Origin: a virus
Virus record (IMG/VR): IMGVR_UViG_3300030104_000125
Coordinates: 1-25,364 of that record
DNA length: 25,364 nt
Direction: 5' to 3' (one strand)
Part shown: in pieces, positions 4,205-20,477 of the stretch
How positions within the stretch are numbered: position 1 is the stretch's first letter
Layout of the letters: every line of letters starts with the position of its first letter
Translations under genes and position numbers: made by a program
Notes under the pieces: model-generated
What the model saw: only the letters and a program-made list of their open reading frames with translations
The model's database searches: none
Told to the model about the DNA's origin: nothing

Positions 4205-5090
4205 TACAGTAGCAACTGATATTAAAAAATTAATTGCTGATATAGCTAATGGAAATCCTGCACCTATAACAGAAGAGAACATGAATAGTTTTCTTAATAA
4301 TATTAAGGAAGCTATGATTGCATGGAACACTCCACCTAAAAAAGAAAAGTATAATGGTGTATTAAGAATGAGTATCTTAGGTAAACCAGCTAGACAATTA
4401 TGGTATGATAAGTATTCACCTAAAGAAACAAAAGAATATGATGCAAGTAATAATTTAAAATTTTTATATGGACATATTATAGAACACTTACTATTATACT
4501 TAACAGAATTATCTGGACATAAAGTAGAAGATAGACAAATGAAAGTTAAAGTAGATGATGTTAAAGGACATATAGATGCTAAAGTAGATGGAGAAATATG
4601 TGATGTTAAGTCTGCTTCACCTTTTAGTTTTAAAAAATTTAAGAATGGTGAGTTAATAAATGATGACCCTTTTGGGTATCATGCCCAGCTATCAGGATAT
4701 GAAACAGCTAATGGAACTAACAAGGGAGGTTTTCTTGTTGCTGATAAATCAAGTGGTGATATATGTTTTTACAAACCAGAAGACTTAGCTAAACCTGATA
4801 CAAGAAGTTTAATAAAAGATTTAAATACTAAACTTGCTAGTGATACACCTCCTGAAAGATGCTATGAATTAAAGACAGAGAAGAATGGAAACAAAGCTAT
4901 ACCAGTTGGTTGTCAATTTTGTATACATAAGTTTGAATGTTATGCAGATGCAAACAAAGGTAAAGGTTTAAGAGTATTTAAATATTCAAATAAGAATGTG
5001 TTCTTAGCTGATGTAATTAAAGAACCTATGGTAGAAGATATAACAAAAGAATTTACAGATGGAATTAAAACACAAACACCTTCTAGTTAG
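4161..5090 (+). CDS. PD-(D/E)XK exonuclease, RecB/Cas4-like
   Basis: 309 aa. Motifs of the RecB nuclease family appear in order: G104-HIIEH109, D139 in GHIDAK, D148-V-K150 in CDVKSAS, and Q176-LSG-Y180. The family cuts or resects DNA with Mg2+. Directly after the polymerase, it sits where T7 has the gp6 exonuclease, so host DNA breakdown, primer removal or recombination are likely roles. C251-x2-C254-x5-C260 near the C-terminus recalls the Fe-S cluster cysteines of Cas4/AddB proteins, with C234 or C147 as a possible fourth ligand. The usual cysteine ahead of the nuclease core is absent, so a metal site is uncertain. The start overlaps the polymerase end and has only a weak ribosome site. Confidence 0.8.
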   Translation: MENIKLETTGQKRIDTVATDIKKLIADIANGNPAPITEENMNSFLNNIKEAMIAWNTPPKKEKYNGVLRMSILGKPARQLWYDKYSPKETKEYDASNNLKFLYGHIIEHLLLYLTELSGHKVEDRQMKVKVDDVKGHIDAKVDGEICDVKSASPFSFKKFKNGELINDDPFGYHAQLSGYETANGTNKGGFLVADKSSGDICFYKPEDLAKPDTRSLIKDLNTKLASDTPPERCYELKTEKNGNKAIPVGCQFCIHKFECYADANKGKGLRVFKYSNKNVFLADVIKEPMVEDITKEFTDGIKTQTPSS

Positions 5091-5442
5091 AGCAGAAGTA
5101 TTAGAACCACCTAAAGATTTAAAGGTCATGAAAAAGTGGACTAAGAGTTTAATAAAAGATATTGATATGAAAATATTAGCTGGTCCATATGCAAAGTATT
5201 GTGAAGTTAAAGGTAATAGAGGTTTAACTTGCGTCACTATAATAGAAACATCCCATATAACTTTACACTCATGGGATGAAATGAGTCCTGCGTTAGTACA
5301 GCTTGATGTTTATAGTTGTAAACAATTAGATGAGAAAATTGTTTTTGATTATGTATATAAGTTTCAACCAGTAAGAATGTCTTATAGATATTTTGATAGA
5401 GAAAAGAATTTTAAATTATTAAAGTTAGATAAGGATGAGTAA
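5059..5442 (+). CDS. S-adenosylmethionine decarboxylase-family (SpeD) pyruvoyl enzyme
   Basis: 127 aa, typical of the short bacterial AdoMetDC proenzyme. The signature TSHITLHSWDE aligns with the family's ESH-I-x-I-HTWPE. S65 is the expected self-cleavage serine that becomes the pyruvoyl group, H70 and C87 (in DVYSC) match the processing His and catalytic Cys. The residue before the serine is Thr rather than the usual Glu, and two residues appear inserted between His and Cys. Family members decarboxylate AdoMet for spermidine synthesis. Published work on virus-encoded polyamine enzymes, as I recall it, found that some pelagiphage homologues are instead pyruvoyl-dependent arginine or ornithine decarboxylases, so the substrate is open. 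It overlaps the nuclease gene by 32 bp. Confidence 0.88.
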   Translation: MELKHKHLLVRAEVLEPPKDLKVMKKWTKSLIKDIDMKILAGPYAKYCEVKGNRGLTCVTIIETSHITLHSWDEMSPALVQLDVYSCKQLDEKIVFDYVYKFQPVRMSYRYFDREKNFKLLKLDKDE

Positions 5443-8893: not shown

Positions 8894-9313
8894 TTATTTA
8901 ATCTTAATTGTCTTAGCTTTTTTTTCTTCAGGTAAGTCTTGATATAATTTTATATTAAGAATACCATCTTTAAAATCAGCCGAGTCTACTTTAACATATT
9001 CTGATAAAGTAAATTTTCTAACCACACTTCTTGATGCGATACCTTGATGTATCAAACTATCTTTATCTTTATCTTCTTTCTTAGCTTTGATAGTAAGCAC
9101 ACCATCTTGTAACTCACATTCTATATCAGACTTAGTGAAACCAGCTAATGCCATTTCTATCTGATGCTTTCCTTCACCTACTTTTCTTATGTTGTATGGT
9201 GGAAAGTTAGAAGTGTTTATTCTTGAGACCTCATTTAATGAATCAAACATTCTATCAAAACCGATAGAGAAGTTTTTAAATGGGTCAAAGTTTATTAAAT
9301 CGTATTGTGTCAT
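8894..9313 (-). CDS. small heat-shock protein, Hsp20/IbpA-like
   Basis: 139 aa. An N-terminal arm (DPFKNFSIGFDRMFDSL) resembles the IbpA start. The alpha-crystallin domain covers about residues 38-125, with YNIRKVGEGKHQIEMALAGF, ELQDGVLTIKAKK, GIASRSVVRKFTLSEYV and FKDGILNIKL. A C-terminal TIKIK supplies the I-x-I motif used in oligomer assembly. Such ATP-independent holdases bind unfolding proteins and are carried by several marine phages, presumably to support folding of virion proteins or protect the host. A consensus sigma70 promoter and a 5' stem-loop lie directly upstream, and AAAGGA precedes the start. It leads the lysis-region transcript. Confidence 0.92.
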   Translation of the reverse strand: MTQYDLINFDPFKNFSIGFDRMFDSLNEVSRINTSNFPPYNIRKVGEGKHQIEMALAGFTKSDIECELQDGVLTIKAKKEDKDKDSLIHQGIASRSVVRKFTLSEYVKVDSADFKDGILNIKLYQDLPEEKKAKTIKIK

Positions 9314-9374: not shown

Positions 9375-9403
9375 ATTATAGTAGGAATTCTAGTCCTTGT
9401 CAA
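9375..9403 (-). promoter_or_regulatory. consensus sigma70 promoter for Hsp20 and the lysis genes
   Basis: On the minus strand, TTGACA (9403-9398) and TATAAT (9380-9375) are separated by exactly 17 bases: a full consensus match with the ideal spacer. The -35 box is formed by the last codons of the 1652-aa gene (V-D-K-D-stop). Expected start is near 9368, about 55 bases before the Hsp20 ATG. It implies transcription by host RNA polymerase, independent of the long structural transcript. Confidence 0.85.
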
Positions 9404-12400
9404 CAAAGAATAAGTCTTTAAATTTCTTATTTCTAGCTAATAATTTCATCTTACCAAGTTTATTTTTATAATATCTTTTATATTCTTTTTCCATACCTAC
9501 TTCATCTCCTGCAAATAATGCTTCTTTAAATTTTGGAAATACATTTTTATCTTTAAAATTTTTTACATTAAATTGAAAATCAAGTAACATTTGTTTTCTT
9601 CTATAATCTAAATCTTTATATTTTTTTCCATATAAATTAATTAGTATTTGATTTTTTGCTTTTAAATCTTTTCTTAATATATCTTCAACAGCTTCTCTAT
9701 TTAAATTGTTTATATCATACCCATATACTAATCCAGTTTTTAATTCGTTTTGTGTAAGTTTATGTCCAAACCCAATAGTATCAGTACCACCTTCTACTGA
9801 TTTATGTTTAAAATTTTTATCTTTATTCATTAAAGGAGCATTTTCTACTTCTTTTATATATGTAATAAATTTTTCATCTTCCCAAGCTTCAGGTTTCTTG
9901 TCAGGTACAATAACTTTTTCTTCTTCCATCATAGTAGTTACTTGGTCATCAACTGATTTTGTTTCTAATGGTTTAACTCCTTCTAACTCAGATAAACCTA
10001 ATACTTTATCACCACTTTCATAACCTAATCTAACAACTTCTCCACCTTTAAAAAAAGTTTTTCTTTTAGTAGGAAGTTTAGTTATCATAACACCAGATGT
10101 ACCTATACCATATTTACTAGGAATCTTTTCTATCTTAAATAATTTTCCTAAAATTTCTTGTACATATTCTTCTAATTCTTTTTGACTAAAACCTTTTTGA
10201 AAAGTTTTATTACTACCTGCACCAAACAACCATCCATCTAAATGAGGTATTGCATTTTTAGATTTACTAGCTTGAGTAGCAACATCTTTACCTCTAGTAG
10301 TTATAATTGCTACACCTTTATTATTAATTAATTCTCCTATTTGAGCAACAACATTAGCTCTTTCAAATGGGTCTTCAATTACATTTAATACATTAAGATT
10401 TACTACAGCATCTTTAGAATTTTTTCCTTCATTCATTAATACATCATCTGCAGTTTGATAAGTAGGTAACTTACCACCAGATTTAATAATTTTTTCTTCT
10501 GGAACAAATGGTTCATGACTTGTAACTTTTTTATTTATAAATTGTTTTGTACCAACTCCTGTACCTGAACCAAAATCATGTACACTATTTAATTTTTTAT
10601 CTGATAAAATTTTATTTACTTTTTTATAAGTACCAACTGTTGTGTTAATAGCTGTGTTTCCTCTTTTAATTGCAAACTTAGTAGCTAACTTAGTAGCACC
10701 ACCTACTAAATAATTTTGTCTATCTATTACACCACCTTCAGCAAACATAATTTGACTACCAAGTGTACTATCAAATACTGGTGGTTTTGGTCCTGCAAAT
10801 AATTTTGATATCCAATTTCTCCAATTAGGTAAAGGTAAAAATCTTTGACTTAAAATTCTTACTGCTCTATCAGTATTTCCATCCCATGCTGCTTTACCAG
10901 CTTCAACAGGAGCAGAAGCTATTTGTGCTGCAGGTGGAAATAAATACCATGGTTCTCTTGAACCTGGTCCAATTAATCTATTAGCAATTAACTCTGGTAA
11001 GAAACCAAACATACCTGATAGTCTTGCACCTTCAGCCCACCATCTATTATTGTTAGCATCATAATCAGTTACTACTTCACCATACTTTGCTAACTCTCTT
11101 AATGATTGAACACCACTATATATAGGTAATACAGCTAAAGTTTTAACTAAAGTTTTAGCACTACCATTTTCCATTCTCATTAAAATTTTATTTGTCTGTG
11201 CTGATTTAGCCATAGCCCATGATAAAAACTGACCCATTAATCTTACCCATTGATTATTACTTTGTGTAAATAATAATCTATTAGATACTTGAGGTATTAA
11301 TGCATCTCTATTTGCTGTTATAATTCCTGCTTCATTAATAGCACCTTTGTTTCCAGCAATTTTAATTGCAGTATTTAAATTTTTAGCTGAACCTATTGAT
11401 AAAGCTTTGTTAGTAGATATACCATAATTATTATTTAAAAAATATTTAATTCTTTTTGCTCTACCAGTATTATCTAATCCTGTTTTAGTTAACTTATTTA
11501 AAGTTTTAGATAAATAATATGCATCAGCAACACCAGTATTATATGCAAATCTTCTAGCATAACCAGTTAACCATGATAATCCTAATGCTTGAAATGCAAG
11601 ATTGTTAACTTTTTGTGAAGGAGACATACCAACCCAAGCATTATTTACTAACACATCTCTACCTTCAAATCCAGCAGACTTCATTAATGCTTGTCTAATA
11701 CCATCATCTATATCTTGATTTAAAGATTTAGCTAATCCTTTTTCATTCTTAGCTCTAAGTGCTGTATCTTTAAAACCTCTAATGATTGCTCTCCAACTAG
11801 AAGAGTTTTGAAAAGGTTGAATTAAATCACCTAATGATGTAATAGTAACTCTACCTAACATATTTAAATTACCTAATGTTCCTAAAAGAGCTGCACTTGA
11901 TTTTGATGCACCAGTCATAGCTGTACCATATCTATCAAAATATGCATCAATACTATTTGCTACTAATTTCATTTCTTGATTCATAGCATTTAAATATTTT
12001 TCTCTTGGTAATCCTGAGTTTATATATTTATTTCTTATTTGTAAAAATAAAGGTTGTAATAATTCTCCATTAGTTCCAAACTGTCTAGCAAATGCAATTG
12101 ATTTAACTGAATCATTTGTTAAACTATTTAATATATTACGAGTATCATTTACTAAGTAACCTTTGTTTTCTAATATTTGTTCAACTTTTTTATAAGGTCC
12201 TTGTAATGCTCTTTTATGTGTAATATGGTCTGTAACTGGAGTGTAAATAAATTTGTTTCCTTCTTTAGAAACACCTGATTTAGAATCTGAAAACATTTGT
12301 TTTAATACTGCAGAATTAAATACACTATCACCAGAAGTTCTATGTCCATGTAAATAATTTTCTGCTGCAACTTGAGACCTTAATTTACCTTTATTAACTC

Positions 12401-14348
12401 CTGAAGCAACAGTACCTTTCATTCCTAAACTTTCATAAATTTCTTTAACTGTTTTTATAAAAGCTTTCTCATCTTTTTTTACAACATCCCAATTTAAAAC
12501 TCTAGGAAAATAATTATCTAATTCTTTAGCTGGAAAAAATCCTGCTGATTCAGATAAATTTTTAAATTCATCTATATAACTTCTAACATTTTTTGATAAT
12601 GTTATTACTCTTTCAGATGTATCTTTTGTTATTTGTCTACCTCTAAGAATAGAGTTAGCTTCTGCTAATTCTGCACCAGAATAATTTTTAGTAATATCAT
12701 AAGCTTTTCTATTAAAGTATCTTTGCATTTGTTCTGCAACAGCTATAACAGATTTTTCTTGTACTGGAGAATCAACTTCTCTAAATAACATCTTACTAAT
12801 TTTTTCAGTAGCACCACCATAAGAATTTAATTTAGATGCACTTGTTGCTGACATAAAATCTCTAACTCTTTGCATAGTTAGTTGTGTCATTTCTCTATCT
12901 ATTAGTCCAAGTATTTTTCCTTTTTCTAAATTAGTTCCAAACTTAGCACTTCTTTGAATCATCTTTTGCATTTGACCAGCCATTGCACCAGCAGCAGCCC
13001 AATACATTAAATCAGTTTCTTCATCACCAAATAAAATACCACCAACTGTACCAGCACCAGCACCTACAAGTGGTCTAACTGTAGCAGATAATAAACCTCT
13101 TACTGCCCAATCAATTTTTGTTTCATCTTTTCTTAATGCTTCTAATATTTTTGTTTGTCTTTTAGCAACTAACTCTGACCATTGTTTTAATTTATCTTGT
13201 TGTTTACCTATTAAATCTTTTTTAACAAGTTCACTTGCTTTTTTAGCTTCAATAATTTTATTTCTAATATTAATAATTTGTTTACCAAGAGGAACCTGCT
13301 TTAACATTCCAGGAACTTTATCACCTTTTGGCTGTTTTCTTCCTTTTAGTTTTCTTATTTTAATTAATAAATCTCTTTGTTCTAATAATTTTTTTTCTAA
13401 TGTTTTAAATTTTTTAGTTTCATTTGCTATAGGTCTAACAAAGTTAGTAGTCCACTTAACCATATCATTGCTAAGTGCTTTAACTTCTTTAGTATTAGCA
13501 GCAGCTTTAATTTTTTTTAATTGTGGTTGAGTAAGATTATTTTGTTTAGCTAATTTTTTTTCTATAAAATCTTCTACTAATTTTAATTCTGATTTAATTA
13601 ATTTAGGTGCATACTTACTTAAAACTTTTCCACCAATAGGAATTACTGCACCAATTGCACCAGCAGTTCCTGAAGATATAGCAACACTATTCCAATCTAC
13701 TTCACCAGTCTTAGCTATATTATCTATAACTACATCACCACCTATTAATAAAGCATTTAATGTAGCTGAACTAATAGGATTAGTCATAGCTTTTAAACTA
13801 ATAGGATTTATATAACCAACTAAATAGTAAGGGTCTAAAAGCATTGAAGCAACTGAACCAGCAGTTATTAATCCACCATCATCTTCTCTACCTCTAAATT
13901 TATAATGTTCTTTATCTAAAGCTTCTAATCTTTTTCTTTCATTTTCTAATATATAATCTTTAAAAGTTTTATCTTTATCTAATATGTCTTGAAAATATGC
14001 TTTACCAATTCTAAACATATTACCAACAACCATAGTTTCTTTATCCCAACCATATTCAAATCTTTCCCAATTACTTATTTGTGAATCAGGCACAACAGGA
14101 CCTTCACTACTTAAAGTAGTGTCAGTTTGTTTAGCAATGGATGGGTAATCGGTTTTAACACCTTCTAAATTAGAAAGGTCAAATTGTTTTGGTACTGTTT
14201 GAGTTTGAAGAGGTTTAACAAATTCTAAATTAGAAAGAGTTAAAGATTCAGATGGAGTTTCTTCTGTTACAGAAACTTGTTTTTCTTCTGTAATAACAGG
14301 AGTTACTCCTTCTAAATTTGAAAGATTTAATTGATTTAATTCTGCCAT
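9390..14348 (-). CDS. giant gp16-like internal virion (ejection) protein with methyltransferase-like and lysozyme-like domains
   Basis: 1652 aa. The N-terminus carries LSNLE motifs at 9-13, 38-42 and 58-62. A long helical body includes Gly/Ala-rich hydrophobic stretches (e.g. VRPLVGAGAGTVGGILFG) like those of T7 gp16-type proteins, which leave the capsid and build the DNA channel across the envelope. After a GG-x-R-Y motif (about 1201-1217) comes a class I methyltransferase-like domain: DFGSGTG from D1258 and NVLNVI near 1319-1324, then a strand VAIITTRG. A second GG-x-R-Y motif follows (about 1431-1446), then LSELEGV near 1452. The C-terminal domain has EVEN (E1500/E1502) and DTIGFGH (D1523-T1524), as in GH24-like lysozymes, which may open peptidoglycan at entry or lysis. 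It follows the gp15-like gene by six bases. Confidence 0.8.
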   Translation of the reverse strand: MAELNQLNLSNLEGVTPVITEEKQVSVTEETPSESLTLSNLEFVKPLQTQTVPKQFDLSNLEGVKTDYPSIAKQTDTTLSSEGPVVPDSQISNWERFEYGWDKETMVVGNMFRIGKAYFQDILDKDKTFKDYILENERKRLEALDKEHYKFRGREDDGGLITAGSVASMLLDPYYLVGYINPISLKAMTNPISSATLNALLIGGDVVIDNIAKTGEVDWNSVAISSGTAGAIGAVIPIGGKVLSKYAPKLIKSELKLVEDFIEKKLAKQNNLTQPQLKKIKAAANTKEVKALSNDMVKWTTNFVRPIANETKKFKTLEKKLLEQRDLLIKIRKLKGRKQPKGDKVPGMLKQVPLGKQIINIRNKIIEAKKASELVKKDLIGKQQDKLKQWSELVAKRQTKILEALRKDETKIDWAVRGLLSATVRPLVGAGAGTVGGILFGDEETDLMYWAAAGAMAGQMQKMIQRSAKFGTNLEKGKILGLIDREMTQLTMQRVRDFMSATSASKLNSYGGATEKISKMLFREVDSPVQEKSVIAVAEQMQRYFNRKAYDITKNYSGAELAEANSILRGRQITKDTSERVITLSKNVRSYIDEFKNLSESAGFFPAKELDNYFPRVLNWDVVKKDEKAFIKTVKEIYESLGMKGTVASGVNKGKLRSQVAAENYLHGHRTSGDSVFNSAVLKQMFSDSKSGVSKEGNKFIYTPVTDHITHKRALQGPYKKVEQILENKGYLVNDTRNILNSLTNDSVKSIAFARQFGTNGELLQPLFLQIRNKYINSGLPREKYLNAMNQEMKLVANSIDAYFDRYGTAMTGASKSSAALLGTLGNLNMLGRVTITSLGDLIQPFQNSSSWRAIIRGFKDTALRAKNEKGLAKSLNQDIDDGIRQALMKSAGFEGRDVLVNNAWVGMSPSQKVNNLAFQALGLSWLTGYARRFAYNTGVADAYYLSKTLNKLTKTGLDNTGRAKRIKYFLNNNYGISTNKALSIGSAKNLNTAIKIAGNKGAINEAGIITANRDALIPQVSNRLLFTQSNNQWVRLMGQFLSWAMAKSAQTNKILMRMENGSAKTLVKTLAVLPIYSGVQSLRELAKYGEVVTDYDANNNRWWAEGARLSGMFGFLPELIANRLIGPGSREPWYLFPPAAQIASAPVEAGKAAWDGNTDRAVRILSQRFLPLPNWRNWISKLFAGPKPPVFDSTLGSQIMFAEGGVIDRQNYLVGGATKLATKFAIKRGNTAINTTVGTYKKVNKILSDKKLNSVHDFGSGTGVGTKQFINKKVTSHEPFVPEEKIIKSGGKLPTYQTADDVLMNEGKNSKDAVVNLNVLNVIEDPFERANVVAQIGELINNKGVAIITTRGKDVATQASKSKNAIPHLDGWLFGAGSNKTFQKGFSQKELEEYVQEILGKLFKIEKIPSKYGIGTSGVMITKLPTKRKTFFKGGEVVRLGYESGDKVLGLSELEGVKPLETKSVDDQVTTMMEEEKVIVPDKKPEAWEDEKFITYIKEVENAPLMNKDKNFKHKSVEGGTDTIGFGHKLTQNELKTGLVYGYDINNLNREAVEDILRKDLKAKNQILINLYGKKYKDLDYRRKQMLLDFQFNVKNFKDKNVFPKFKEALFAGDEVGMEKEYKRYYKNKLGKMKLLARNKKFKDLFFVDKD

Positions 14349-14354
14349 TATTCA

Positions 14355-16226
14355 TTAAGGTGTAGATTTAAATTTAACCTTTTTAGATTTGTATACAGAT
14401 TTGTTATTAAGAGGAAAAGCAATTTCATATTTTTCTTTTATTTCTGCACCTGTCATATCATTTGGAAGTATAGCTTGTACTTCTTCAATACTTTCAAATA
14501 CTGGTTTGTTATTATATCCTACTTCTTTAGGAGTTATTTTAATTGTTTCACCTTTCTCATCTTTTCTTAACATTGAACTCATTTGTTCAGCTATAGCAGC
14601 ATCACCTGCTGTAACATCTTCTTTAACTGAGTAATCTATTTTGTTTGCATCTAATATTTCTTTATTTTTTTCTGTTAAAGGAACTTCTTTTTTTTCTCCA
14701 TCAATATTAACTACAACAGTTCTTATTTTATTATCTGCAATATCTTTTTGAATTTCTTGTTCATTTGCTACTATATCAGGTGCAATTGTTTTATCTACAT
14801 TTCCTGTTTTAACTTCTCCTTCTGTTGTAGATTTATTTTCATCATAGAATTTTTTTATATTATTATCATTTGCATATAAGTAATTTTTAAAATCATTAAC
14901 AACTTTTGCATCACCATCTATTAAAGCTGTATAAATTTTAACAACTTTACCTTGACCATCTAAAAAATCATTATCAATTTTTCTTGCTTCTGTATCAATA
15001 AATTTAGACATAGCAACACTAATACTTTTCATTTTTGATTTATCATCTACTTGATACTTAGCATCTCCTAATTGTAATCCACCATCTATATCAACAACTG
15101 ATAAAGGAACAATTGTAGTTAAGATATATGCATTTTTACCATTACTACTAATTTTATCTTTGTTAGTTGTTGCTCTTCCATTGTTTATAGCTTTTGATGT
15201 AGCTGTCCAAATTGCATCTTGACTAAAATATTTTTTAATATCAGTTGGTTCTTTAGAAATATTATTATAAGCATATGTTGCATTATCTTTTGAATCTCTA
15301 ACTCCATTAAACATAGCTTCAATTGCAAGTAAATTAACTTGTGCATTTGGTTGCATACCTTCAATCTTACTATCTGTTTTATTAAATTTAAAACTTAATT
15401 CATTACCAGCTCCACTAATATTCATTGTATTTATAAATTTTAATGTATCATTATCATTATTTAATTTAAATACAGCTTCATCTTGCATTTTTTCCCATCT
15501 AGAATTATATTCTTTATCTGGTGTATTAACTTTTACTTTTTTTGATAATAATATTTTTTCATCTGTAATATCTGTACTATCTTTAGTATCTGTATTATCT
15601 GTAGATTCTATTTCTTGTATTGCTGTTTCAACTTTTTTATCTGAATCAGTTTTATCTTCTACTGTAATTAATTTACTATCTGTAGTTTCTTTTTTCTTCC
15701 ATGGAGTTTTAGATAAAATAGTATTAATTAAAAAACTATCACCTTTAGCTTCACTTAATTGATTTGCATAATCTTTTAATATAAATTTCTTTTCTTTATC
15801 TAATTCATTTTCATAATTAGTTAAATAGTTTTCATCAAACTCATATGTTCTATTAGTACTACCAAACTCAGCTCTTAATACTTTCTTTCTTTCATCAGAT
15901 AAAGCATTAAATTTATCAACACCTAATTTAATCATTAAATATCTATCAGCATATTCATCTTGGTCAAAAGTTATACCAGTATCTTTATTAGCTTTATTAA
16001 AAGCTGCAGCTTCAGCATTTAATGAATTAATCTCATCAGCTTTTTCTTTTTCTTGATAAAACTTTTTAAGTTCATAATCATATTTTGCATCTTTTCTTCT
16101 AATAAGAGAATCTCTTTCTGCTTTTAATTCATCAGCACGAATAGCTAAATCTTCTTTAGTTATTTCTCTATCTCTATCAATAGCACCAACTGCTAAATTA
16201 GCAACATCCATCCAATTAAATCCCAT
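14355..16226 (-). CDS. gp15-like internal virion protein
   Basis: 623 aa, highly charged and mostly helical. The first 80 residues form a likely coiled coil (DLAIRADELKAERDSLIRRK; KKFYQEKEKADEIN), followed by acidic, Thr/Asp-rich low-complexity regions (near 195-225) and a basic C-terminus (YKSKKVKFKSTP). It is placed between a small structural gene and the giant gp16-like gene, as gp15 is in T7, where it is part of the ejectosome. Sequence resemblance to T7 gp15 is not obvious by eye, so the call rests on size, helical character and gene order. The start is joined to the upstream gene by TAATG. Confidence 0.6.
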   Translation of the reverse strand: MGFNWMDVANLAVGAIDRDREITKEDLAIRADELKAERDSLIRRKDAKYDYELKKFYQEKEKADEINSLNAEAAAFNKANKDTGITFDQDEYADRYLMIKLGVDKFNALSDERKKVLRAEFGSTNRTYEFDENYLTNYENELDKEKKFILKDYANQLSEAKGDSFLINTILSKTPWKKKETTDSKLITVEDKTDSDKKVETAIQEIESTDNTDTKDSTDITDEKILLSKKVKVNTPDKEYNSRWEKMQDEAVFKLNNDNDTLKFINTMNISGAGNELSFKFNKTDSKIEGMQPNAQVNLLAIEAMFNGVRDSKDNATYAYNNISKEPTDIKKYFSQDAIWTATSKAINNGRATTNKDKISSNGKNAYILTTIVPLSVVDIDGGLQLGDAKYQVDDKSKMKSISVAMSKFIDTEARKIDNDFLDGQGKVVKIYTALIDGDAKVVNDFKNYLYANDNNIKKFYDENKSTTEGEVKTGNVDKTIAPDIVANEQEIQKDIADNKIRTVVVNIDGEKKEVPLTEKNKEILDANKIDYSVKEDVTAGDAAIAEQMSSMLRKDEKGETIKITPKEVGYNNKPVFESIEEVQAILPNDMTGAEIKEKYEIAFPLNNKSVYKSKKVKFKSTP

Positions 16227-16801
16227 TACATATCTCCTTTCAGTTGCTCTACTTTACTTGGTAGTTCACTTTCAACTCTTGATAATAAACTTTCACCTAA
16301 ACTTTCAGCTTTTGGTTCTGCCATTTTATCTGTTTTAATTTCTTCATCTTCATTTTCATCTGCATCAAAATCTACAGGTTCAACATCATCACCATGAATT
16401 TCAGCATCAGGGTCAGTTTCTTCACCAGTATATAAAGTATAATCTTTTATATCAGCATAATCAGCAATAGATATTAATAAATATAATGTAGGTTCAATTA
16501 ATAACATCATTAAATCAGGAGTCCATTTACCTTCACTATATCCTTTATATAAAACAACTTGTGCTATTTCATCTAAAGCAGTTCCTTCATCAATTAAATC
16601 AATTAATTTTCTTAAATTATCTATCTCGGTTAATTCCATATAGACAGCTTCCATAGCATTACCTTGGTCTATAAATTGTGGAGGTCTTTCCCATGCTTTA
16701 GGCATATCTGTAGGAGTAGTTAAAGATTCTCCAGGTGTAGGAGCAGAAAAAGGATTAACACCTACTTTATCAAATTGTGTTTGTTTTATTTTTTCAGCCA
16801 T
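16226..16801 (-). CDS. 191-aa acidic virion structural protein (putative)
   Basis: The N-terminus has a motif PGESLTTPTDMPKAWERPPQF (about residues 23-43) that I recall from a conserved structural protein of marine T4-like and pelagi-phages. A helical middle follows (ELTEIDNLRKLIDLIDEG; hydrophobic LMMLLIEPTLYLLISIADY), then a very acidic linker (about 125-158) and a helical end. Function in the particle is unknown. It has TAATG junctions on both sides, so translation is coupled with the small basic gene before it and the gp15-like gene after it. Confidence 0.6.
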   Translation of the reverse strand: MAEKIKQTQFDKVGVNPFSAPTPGESLTTPTDMPKAWERPPQFIDQGNAMEAVYMELTEIDNLRKLIDLIDEGTALDEIAQVVLYKGYSEGKWTPDLMMLLIEPTLYLLISIADYADIKDYTLYTGEETDPDAEIHGDDVEPVDFDADENEDEEIKTDKMAEPKAESLGESLLSRVESELPSKVEQLKGDM

Positions 16802-18377: not shown

Positions 18378-20477
18378 TTAACTTCTTGTTAAAATTGTTT
18401 TAAATAAATCTAAACCAAATCCACCTAATTTTTGTAGAGTACTTGCTCTAGCTGCATCACTAACTTGTTCATTCCCTAATGCAGCAATAGATAAATTAGT
18501 TTGTCTTTCTTGTGCATTTTGTGCTGCTTCATATTCCCACTTAGCAGAATCTCTCATCTCTTGCCATAAAAAAGATAAACCTTGGTTACTCATATTAAAT
18601 GAATTCATTGCATTAGCTTGGTTAACTGCATTTTGTCCTGCAGTATTTGCTTGATTTAATTGTCTTCTCCATGTAACATTTGATTGTTCAATTAGATTTG
18701 AATTTTGTGTATTAAAATTATCTCTATTATAATTTAATTGTGAATTAAATTTTTCTATTTCAGCATTTAAACTTTCTTGTAATCTTTCAGCTTCTAATGA
18801 ATTACCTTGATTTAAAGCTTCTATTCTATTTGTTTCAGTAATATTGTACTGGTTCATTGCATCATTTCTTGCAGCATTTTGTTGACTAATAGTAGTAGAT
18901 AAACTATTCATAAATTGATTAGTTTGATTCTGACTTGTTGCATTAAATTGAGCAGAAGCATTATCTGCAGCTTGATTAGTTAACATTGCTTGTTGTCTAT
19001 TCTGTGCATTTAATACTTCAGTTTGTTGTGAATTAGTTAAGTTTGCCATATCCATTTGTAAAAATGCTTGAGCATTAACAACAGCTTTTTGTTGAGCATT
19101 AGTTAAATTTTGCATATCCATTGTAGCTGTTTGTACAGCATTTTGCATAGTAGCTTGTTGTTCATTATTTAAATTTTGTAATTCAAATGTTCTAAATAAA
19201 TTAGAATTAGATATTGCAGTTTGTTGTTGATTGTTTAAATTTAAAACATCCATTCCTGCAGTAGTTTGAGCATTTGCTAAAGCTGTTTGTTGATTAGCAC
19301 TTAAATTAGCTAAAGCCATTTGTTGAGTTAATTGACCTTGAGTTAAACCAGCTTGTTGTATGTTAGCTAAGTTTGCTAATCTTATTTCTTGTTGTTGTTT
19401 AGCACCAGCTAAAATACTTTGTTGTTCACTCATTGCATTAAGTTTAGTTAACTCTTGAGCAAATTGACCAGTAGCCATTTGTGCTTTCATATCATTTTCA
19501 GCATTAACTAACTGAGTTTGAAAATTTTGTTGAGCAGTTAATACTTCTGCTTGTTGTTCATTTGTTAAATTCTGTGCTGCTCTTTGTTGTAATGCTGTTG
19601 CATTTGATTGAGCAATAGGTAATGCAGATGTAATAATTGCATTTACTAAAGCATCTCTACCAATTGTAGATTTACTTAAACCTCTTTGTGCTAAATTTTT
19701 TTCAACACTATCAACTGCACCTCTTGCCCATGTAGGGATTTGTCCAGTATCAATACCAGATAATAAAGAAGTTATTTGAGTAGATACTAAAGCATCTGTA
19801 GGTAATGCAGCAACTTGTGCTTGTACTGCAGTAGGTTGTGATACTATTGCTTTAGTAACAGTAGCTGGATTATTTGCAATAGCTGATTGAATATTTCCAG
19901 GTAATGATGCTGTTTGTCCAGCAACAGTTGCAGCAGTTCCACTTAATACTGCAGCTAAAGCTCCACTTGATAATTGTCCTTGTTGTGCTGCAGCTACAGC
20001 CGAAGTTGTAGGATTAGCACTAGCACCAGTAGCAGTACCAGATAAAGTTCCAGTAACTGTTCCTATTTGCGATTGTGTACCTACTGTACCTGTTTGAGCA
20101 GTTCCTGTTTGAGCAGTACCACTTGTTGGTGTCATAGTAGATGTAGTAAAACTTGTAGGTCCTGCACCTGCTGTTGAAGTTAAAGCTGTCGGTGTTGCAA
20201 TTTGTGAACCTGTAATTGTTTTAGTTCCAACAGCAGTAGGTGCTGTTTGTTGTGAACCTGCTAATAATTCATTAGCTTGTACTGTTTGTTGTGTATAAGA
20301 TTGTTTTGCAGCATCAGCAAGTTCAGGAGATTTAATTTGTTCAGTTACATATTTATCTGCAAACTGATTTCTTTTTCCTAATCCACCTTGTTGTGGTTGT
20401 GAACCTTCAGGAATTCTTGTAAATTTCCTAGCTTCATCACCTGTTGCTCTTCTGATTCTTTTAATTTTTTTTATCAT
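18378..20477 (-). CDS. 699-aa repeat-containing virion protein (T7 gp14-position, marine-phage type)
   Basis: A basic start (IKKIKRIRRATGDEARKF) is followed by a Thr/Ala/Gly-rich low-complexity region (about 50-170). A helical part (about 220-300) comes next, then nine consecutive 22-residue units (304-501) of the form L-x-N-x-Q-Q-x-A, and a Asn/Gln-rich helical C-terminus. Proteins with this repeat and the following DNASAQFNATSQ-type segment are, from memory, widespread in marine phages among tail or internal proteins. It sits where T7 has gp14. Multiples of 11 residues suit a right-handed helical rod or coiled coil. The start lacks a clear Shine-Dalgarno. Confidence 0.6.
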   Translation of the reverse strand: MIKKIKRIRRATGDEARKFTRIPEGSQPQQGGLGKRNQFADKYVTEQIKSPELADAAKQSYTQQTVQANELLAGSQQTAPTAVGTKTITGSQIATPTALTSTAGAGPTSFTTSTMTPTSGTAQTGTAQTGTVGTQSQIGTVTGTLSGTATGASANPTTSAVAAAQQGQLSSGALAAVLSGTAATVAGQTASLPGNIQSAIANNPATVTKAIVSQPTAVQAQVAALPTDALVSTQITSLLSGIDTGQIPTWARGAVDSVEKNLAQRGLSKSTIGRDALVNAIITSALPIAQSNATALQQRAAQNLTNEQQAEVLTAQQNFQTQLVNAENDMKAQMATGQFAQELTKLNAMSEQQSILAGAKQQQEIRLANLANIQQAGLTQGQLTQQMALANLSANQQTALANAQTTAGMDVLNLNNQQQTAISNSNLFRTFELQNLNNEQQATMQNAVQTATMDMQNLTNAQQKAVVNAQAFLQMDMANLTNSQQTEVLNAQNRQQAMLTNQAADNASAQFNATSQNQTNQFMNSLSTTISQQNAARNDAMNQYNITETNRIEALNQGNSLEAERLQESLNAEIEKFNSQLNYNRDNFNTQNSNLIEQSNVTWRRQLNQANTAGQNAVNQANAMNSFNMSNQGLSFLWQEMRDSAKWEYEAAQNAQERQTNLSIAALGNEQVSDAARASTLQKLGGFGLDLFKTILTRS
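18975..19568 (-). repeat. nine in-frame 66-bp (22-residue) tandem units
   Basis: The 594-bp segment encodes nine consecutive units of exactly 22 residues. Units 1 and 5-9 show the pattern best, for example LTNEQQAEVLTAQQNFQTQL, LSANQQTALANAQTTAGMDV and LTNAQQKAVVNAQAFLQMDM. Unit 2 is diverged but keeps the length. DNA identity between units is low, so the repeat is old and held by protein structure rather than recent duplication. Confidence 0.85.

Follow-up and report, generated by a model that had tools for sequence, protein, structure and literature searches.

A large putative ejection protein of a pelagiphage with predicted methyltransferase and lysozyme folds in its exchangeable C-terminal region

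The window, that is, the whole stretch of 25,364 nucleotides analyzed here, comes from a marine virus contig (25.7 kb) that is syntenic with Pelagibacter phage HTVC103P. A single open reading frame (ORF) of 1652 amino acids was found on the minus strand, where a sequence-only reading made without database searches had placed one large protein. The ORF follows genes of 699, 422, 191 and 623 aa and precedes an Hsp20 gene (Table 1), while the opposite strand encodes an AdoMet decarboxylase, a Cas4-like exonuclease, a DNA polymerase and a primase. Its product shares 41% identity across residues 1-1563 with HTVC103P gp52, which is deposited under the name "hypothetical protein". The source phage is thus an HTVC103P-type pelagiphage, and its host is probably a SAR11 bacterium; HTVC103P itself is a cultured SAR11 phage growing on HTCC7211. 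The gene order 699-422-191-623-1652 aa is comparable with that of HTVC103P and of gp25-gp22 of HMO-2011, and HMO-2011-type morphogenesis genes are present in HTVC103P-type pelagiphages (PMC8528129).

Table 1. Position of the 1652-aa ORF, its domains and motifs, and the neighboring genes in the window
Feature	Coordinates	Strand	Remarks
Hsp20 gene, directly downstream of the 1652-aa ORF	8894..9313	minus	PF00011 E=2.9e-16; phrog_432 E=3.7e-39
1652-aa ORF	9390..14348	minus	ATG at 14348, stop 9390-9392; putative ejection (internal virion) protein, enzymatic cargo at its C-terminus
T4-lysozyme-like (GH24) domain, residues 1492-1649	9402..9875	minus	E1502, H1515, S1517, E1519 and T1524 invariant
LSELEGV motif, residues 1452-1458	9975..9995	minus	In the linker joining methyltransferase to lysozyme
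Class I AdoMet-methyltransferase domain (predicted), residues 1226-1430	10059..10673	minus	Profile, alignment, AF2, Foldseek
Q1384-KGF...E1391-L1392 signature	10173..10199	minus	Common to TIGR04096-type methyltransferases
Motif IV region, N1319-VLN-V1323	10380..10394	minus	Without DPPY or PC DNA-methyltransferase motif
Motif I, D1258-FGSGT-G1264, AdoMet-binding loop	10557..10577	minus	Aspartate and all three glycines unchanged in 40/40
Conserved core, residues 90-1200 (~1100 aa)	10749..14081	minus	Common to all HTVC103P-type homologues whatever the C-terminal cargo
Gly-rich segment, residues 221-240	13629..13688	minus	Sole segment above the hydrophobicity threshold used (Kyte-Doolittle scan)
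N-terminal LSNLEGV-type short repeats, residues 9, 38 and 58	14157..14324	minus	Fourth copy at residue 1452
623-aa gene, upstream of the 1652-aa ORF	14355..16226	minus	gp15-like by position only
191-aa gene	16226..16801	minus	Same-position gene in phage LS06-2018-MD07 annotated internal virion protein (position only)
699-aa structural-module gene, upstream	18378..20477	minus	Synteny with HTVC103P

The neighborhood holds further genes of possible relevance. HTVC103P and HTVC115P also have the Hsp20 gene at this position, and its product could be a chaperone of the giant 1652-aa protein. The AdoMet decarboxylase gene (SpeD-like, 5059-5442 on the plus strand, PF02675 E=3.6e-13) has annotated counterparts in HTVC103P and HTVC115P; its product uses up AdoMet, and the same genome codes for an AdoMet methyltransferase. 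A toxin-activating lysine-acyltransferase (HlyC-like) is annotated within the structural module of HTVC115P (gp46, L009:3391-3840), and HTVC103P has an HlyC-like lysine-acyltransferase gene in its early region. Such an enzyme might acylate an ejection protein.

The ORF closes the tail/internal-protein module as its last large gene, in keeping with the gene order of T7 gp16. The sequence-only reading had called its product gp16-like; this description holds for gene order and size, but not for sequence or profile similarity, since the comparison of T7 gp16 with the core gave an hhalign probability of 0.3% and an hmmsearch score below the inclusion threshold. Homology of the upstream 623-aa gene product to T7 gp15 or HMO-2011 gp23 was likewise not detected. 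From gene order, we infer that the 1652-aa protein is located in the virion and ejected.

Most of the protein consists of the conserved core, whose members share 29-72% identity with the source phage's protein in a 16-sequence alignment. Searches of the core against Pfam (16 members), the PDB, T7 gp16, HMO-2011 gp22 and LS06 gave no meaningful match, and polyvalent-associated domains (LPD, MPTase) were not seen in the 16 members with Pfam, even at E<=0.5. Matches of the core to haemagglutinin HA2 were set aside as coiled-coil noise. The short repeats follow the pattern LS[NE]LE[GF]V, which also occurs in HTVC103P (residues 11, 34 and 1469), L038 and L030 and is absent from the other homologues examined.

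Beyond the core, the sequence-only reading had recognized a class I AdoMet-methyltransferase-like domain. The whole 1652-aa protein matched nothing in Pfam or PHROGs, and the methyltransferase scored only when excised. The isolated segment matched TIGR04096 (E=1.5e-8) and PF13489 Methyltransf_23 (E=1.6e-3) by hmmscan, both with scores under the curated cut-offs. An AF2 model built from a 40-sequence alignment reached a mean pLDDT of 94.8 and a pTM of 0.90, and Foldseek returned 793 PDB matches at E<=1e-3, with all 50 of the matches listed being AdoMet methyltransferases. The top structures among them were glycine/sarcosine N-methyltransferases, Trm9, TylM1 and CypM, and the nearest viral models were portions of other large phage proteins.

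The residues expected of such an enzyme are strictly conserved. Across 40/40 homologues there is no variation at D1258, G1260, G1262, G1264, E1279 (the acidic residue after strand 2), V1320, N1322, R1330, G1345, R1352, Q1384, K1385, E1391 or L1392. Each of the 74/74 domains with enough sequence contains motif I, the VLN motif and QK[GE][FY]. Two results that could have spoken against the domain were therefore not obtained: the predicted structure is a Rossmann-like methyltransferase fold, and the motif I glycines are kept in all aligned relatives, with no conserved loss. The domain is under purifying selection: most close pairs have a dN/dS far below 1, and L042 paired with L038 or with L008, two related comparisons, gives 0.57-0.65. 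By its predicted fold and motifs, the methyltransferase belongs to class I.

The second predicted enzyme lies at the C-terminal end. Neither Pfam nor PHROGs matched the source phage's lysozyme segment, even when excised. Its AF2 model (pLDDT 82.7, pTM 0.80) found T4, P22, gp5-type and other GH24 lysozymes as best PDB matches (E 4e-3 upward, probability ~1.0), so that the modeled lysozyme fold is clear but remote. The fold proposed from sequence was thus recovered, while the proposed active-site residues were only in part: E1502 and T1524 are invariant in a 7-sequence alignment, but E1500 and D1523 vary. The catalytic triad of T4 lysozyme consists of E11, D20 and T26. When aligned by eye, the position of T4 D20 corresponds to S1517, and lysozyme activity is therefore not to be assumed. 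On these models, both the methyltransferase and the lysozyme fold are real within one polypeptide.

Comparison of homologues showed that cargo is exchanged C-terminal to the ~1100-aa core, in the form of interchangeable wall hydrolases and an optional methyltransferase. Methyltransferase followed by lysozyme is found in the source phage, HTVC103P, L038 and L043, and HTVC104P has the same architecture by tblastn coverage. The order is reversed, with a lysozyme-type hydrolase preceding the methyltransferase, in L003, L018, L024 and L030. The methyltransferase is followed by a glucosaminidase in L048 and the partial L032, and by a short tail without recognized hydrolase in L033 and L047; L002 and L006 carry a hydrolase without methyltransferase. 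Core and methyltransferase are also fused in roughly twelve additional complete ORFs of IMG/VR (1494-1966 aa). The hydrolases on this core include Phage_lysozyme PF00959 (HTVC103P, E=2e-10; L024, E=6.2e-8), Glucosaminidase PF01832 (L006, E=7e-17; L048, E=7.9e-13) and a transglycosylase/endolysin-like module (L053). The HTVC103P module also matched phrog_2083, "internal virion lysozyme motif" (E=1.8e-10).

Some methyltransferase modules are 97-98% identical on cores that are merely 39-55% identical, with a synonymous divergence of 0.05-0.12 and dN/dS of 0.08-0.29 in the same pairs. The breakpoint lies at the 5' edge of the methyltransferase module, and similarity continues into the next gene. 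In L027, L029 and L035, the next gene is the 143-aa membrane-protein gene, and the exchanged block is therefore not described as ending after Hsp20. Since large blocks farther downstream are also alike, either the methyltransferase module or the core may have moved. In the tree, core-fused methyltransferases form one group (99/96) adjoining stand-alone versions, and CRP-3-type and other fusions lie elsewhere.

Several C-termini depart from these arrangements. Single in-frame stops occur in the inter-module linkers of L017 (4989-4991), L027 (1070-1072) and L029 (590-592), splitting off the methyltransferase or the hydrolase plus methyltransferase, by real gene splitting or sequencing error. In L017 and L027 the stop separates hydrolase from methyltransferase, so the methyltransferase may be a separate protein there. 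In HTVC115P gp40 (C-terminus at L009:11487-13490), a ~670-aa unrecognized region with no Pfam match replaces methyltransferase and lysozyme on the same core. The L004 ORF has an extra unrecognized domain of ~170 aa (residues ~890-1060) at the methyltransferase/lysozyme boundary, as do L005 and L057.

The methyltransferase family extends well beyond these phages. Relatives were found on 311 IMG/VR contigs and at 4 loci among 84,980 species genomes of bacteria and archaea, a ratio that hangs on one degenerate sequence pattern and is a rough figure. The family thus appears virus-biased, being found almost only in viruses. Stand-alone members are ~240-aa genes in the terminase/portal interval of the late head module. 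Larger proteins also hold the domain, among them a 3120-aa protein of phage LS06 and the 1211-aa gp97 of Myrna, encoded two genes before the major head protein. A literature search found no virion proteomics for any family member, and the virion mass-spectrometry results in the passages of PMC7150772 that were covered concern Rosebush only, with none for Myrna. A family methyltransferase is also encoded in the portal/coat interval of the Roseobacter phage CRP-3 (gp36). In L087, a methyltransferase nearly identical to that of CRP-3 gp36 is fused to a SleB-type Hydrolase_2 (E=7.2e-15); this fusion lies in a different protein and place, and wall hydrolase and methyltransferase were therefore joined separately there. 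ORFs of ~585 aa (L080:5876-7633 and similar ones in L079 and L083-L086) combine a methyltransferase of the terminase-portal class with an unrecognized N-terminal region of ~370 aa; the fold search also returned a 601-aa viral model, A0A6J5LHE8, that bears the name cytidyltransferase-like.

Profile comparisons suggest that the family is distantly related to Dnd-associated TIGR04096 methyltransferases. TIGR04096 was the top match for the source phage and most relatives tested (E 6.9e-10 to 3e-3), with the source phage domain scoring 33.9 and 32.1 bits, far below the 150-bit curated cut-off. One of the four cellular loci, L102, is TIGR04096-like (144.9 bits, just under that cut-off), matched the viral profile with an hhalign probability of 98.4% and has the QKGF..EL signature in common with it. 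The literature search turned up no TIGR04096 protein with a described substrate.

Incoming DNA had been suggested as one target of an ejected methyltransferase, alongside host nucleic acid or protein. The motifs [DNS]PP[YFW] and PC[QSG] occur nowhere in the 1652 aa, and the enzymes of nearest solved structure methylate small molecules, peptides or tRNA; an effect on incoming DNA is accordingly disfavored. Because the motif IV of DNA methyltransferases is absent, base methylation of incoming DNA is not favored. The substrate is most likely not a DNA base, and a protein, an RNA or a small molecule is favored.

Taken together, these observations point, with a probability of roughly 0.55, to a large last ejection-type protein that carries a GH24 lysozyme cargo for entry and a methyltransferase cargo acting in the cytoplasm before phage expression. 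The conserved core, judged by gene order, would probably be packaged in the head and exit with the DNA; the GH24-type lysozyme would open the peptidoglycan during entry; the C-terminus would arrive in the AdoMet-containing host cytoplasm, and the methyltransferase might then modify a host or phage target ahead of phage gene expression. T7 gp16 enters the cell, its C-terminus presumably reaching the cytoplasm, and ejection proteins have exchanged wall-hydrolase domains with one another (PMC8954989); there is also precedent for virion-delivered multidomain proteins (PMC5512222). An awkward point is that the lysozyme needs the periplasm and the methyltransferase cytoplasmic AdoMet, so that neighboring domains need separation by linkers or cleavage. 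A broader proposal, which we hold tentatively and consider rather doubtful as a whole, is that a virus-specific methyltransferase family, distantly related to the Dnd-associated methyltransferases, resides in virions of several phage lineages and is injected as an early effector, its fusion to hydrolases having arisen separately at least two times. As an early effector, it may serve host reprogramming or counter-defense.

The methyltransferase could instead act while virions are being assembled in the producing cell, with a capsid, tail or host component as its target and virion carriage a mere by-product of fusion. AdoMet is available where the protein is made, stand-alone homologues sit among late head genes, and L017 and L027 have a separate methyltransferase ORF adjoining the late ejection gene, although their in-frame stops fit the entry or the assembly view, or sequencing error. 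Fusion to several different large head/entry-module proteins, twice beside wall hydrolases, is however the pattern of entry cargo, and we regard action at assembly as unlikely, though a serious rival. Still less probable is methylation of the incoming phage DNA (base or backbone) against restriction, or a counter to phosphorothioate-based (Dnd) defense. The TIGR04096 match with its common signature would suit such a role, as would P1 DarB, a packaged anti-restriction DNA methyltransferase (PMC5512222). On the other hand, the protein lacks NPPY/DPPY or PC motifs, the match reaches only 33.9 bits against a cut-off of 150 in a family for which we found no described substrate, and polyvalent DNA methyltransferases are EcoKI/TaqI-like with NPP(Y/F) and usually helicase-paired (PMC5512222), features not seen here.

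An ordinary metabolic enzyme acting on a host small molecule and fused by chance would agree with the closest folds among the matches listed (glycine/sarcosine N-methyltransferases, TylM1, CypM and Trm9-like enzymes), but the near confinement of the family to viruses (311 viral loci vs 4) and its recurrence in head/entry modules make this improbable. An inactive Rossmann domain, either decayed or of structural use only, might be suggested by the lack of any Pfam or PHROG match in the whole-protein search, but is at least as hard to sustain and very improbable: AdoMet-loop and other residues are invariant across 40 divergent sequences, and the dN/dS of most close pairs lies far under 1, with higher values (0.57-0.65) for L042 against L038 or L008.

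To our knowledge, few phage-delivered enzymes are known besides RNA polymerases, ADP-ribosyltransferases and DNA methyltransferases. Under the preferred reading of cytoplasmic action after entry, a conserved, virus-biased methyltransferase on a putative entry protein is a candidate effector acting before gene expression, one that can be tested directly in phages whose hosts are among the very abundant bacteria of the ocean. As the C-terminus is an exchangeable cargo site, comparison across phages should expose further delivered enzymes.

Among known systems, HTVC103P gp52 and its HTVC104P homologue share with the source phage the core, the methyltransferase-then-lysozyme order and the neighbors (Hsp20, AdoMet decarboxylase); gp52 differs in its overall sequence (41% identity) and in a lysozyme module of another GH24 type. 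T7 gp16 is also a large last ejection-type protein by gene order that carries a peptidoglycan hydrolase, but its homology was not detected, it has no methyltransferase and its hydrolase is N-terminal, a contrast drawn correctly in the sequence-only reading according to the literature (PMC8954989). CRP-3 gp36 and L087 also unite a methyltransferase of this family and a peptidoglycan hydrolase in a single head-module protein, whereas the core is another one, the SleB Hydrolase_2 is N-terminal and the gene lies in the portal/coat interval. TIGR04096 proteins have a homologous catalytic core including the VLN, R and QKGF...EL signatures, but the match to the phage domain is confined to about positions 28-153 of the 478 in the model. 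Polyvalent proteins such as P1 DarB contain several enzymatic domains, including methyltransferases or lysozymes, and are thought to be delivered with the DNA (PMC5512222). The 1652-aa protein resembles them in having at least two disparate enzymatic domains in one polypeptide and a late/virion gene context. Their methyltransferases are mostly of the EcoKI/TaqI-like adenine DNA type with NPP(Y/F) and a helicase partner, whereas that of the source phage is a class I enzyme of non-DNA type. Apart from the DNA methyltransferases of DarB type, our literature search yielded no ejection protein described as having such a methyltransferase domain. Delivered multidomain "polyvalent" virion proteins are therefore already known, while a methyltransferase cargo of this kind appears to be new.
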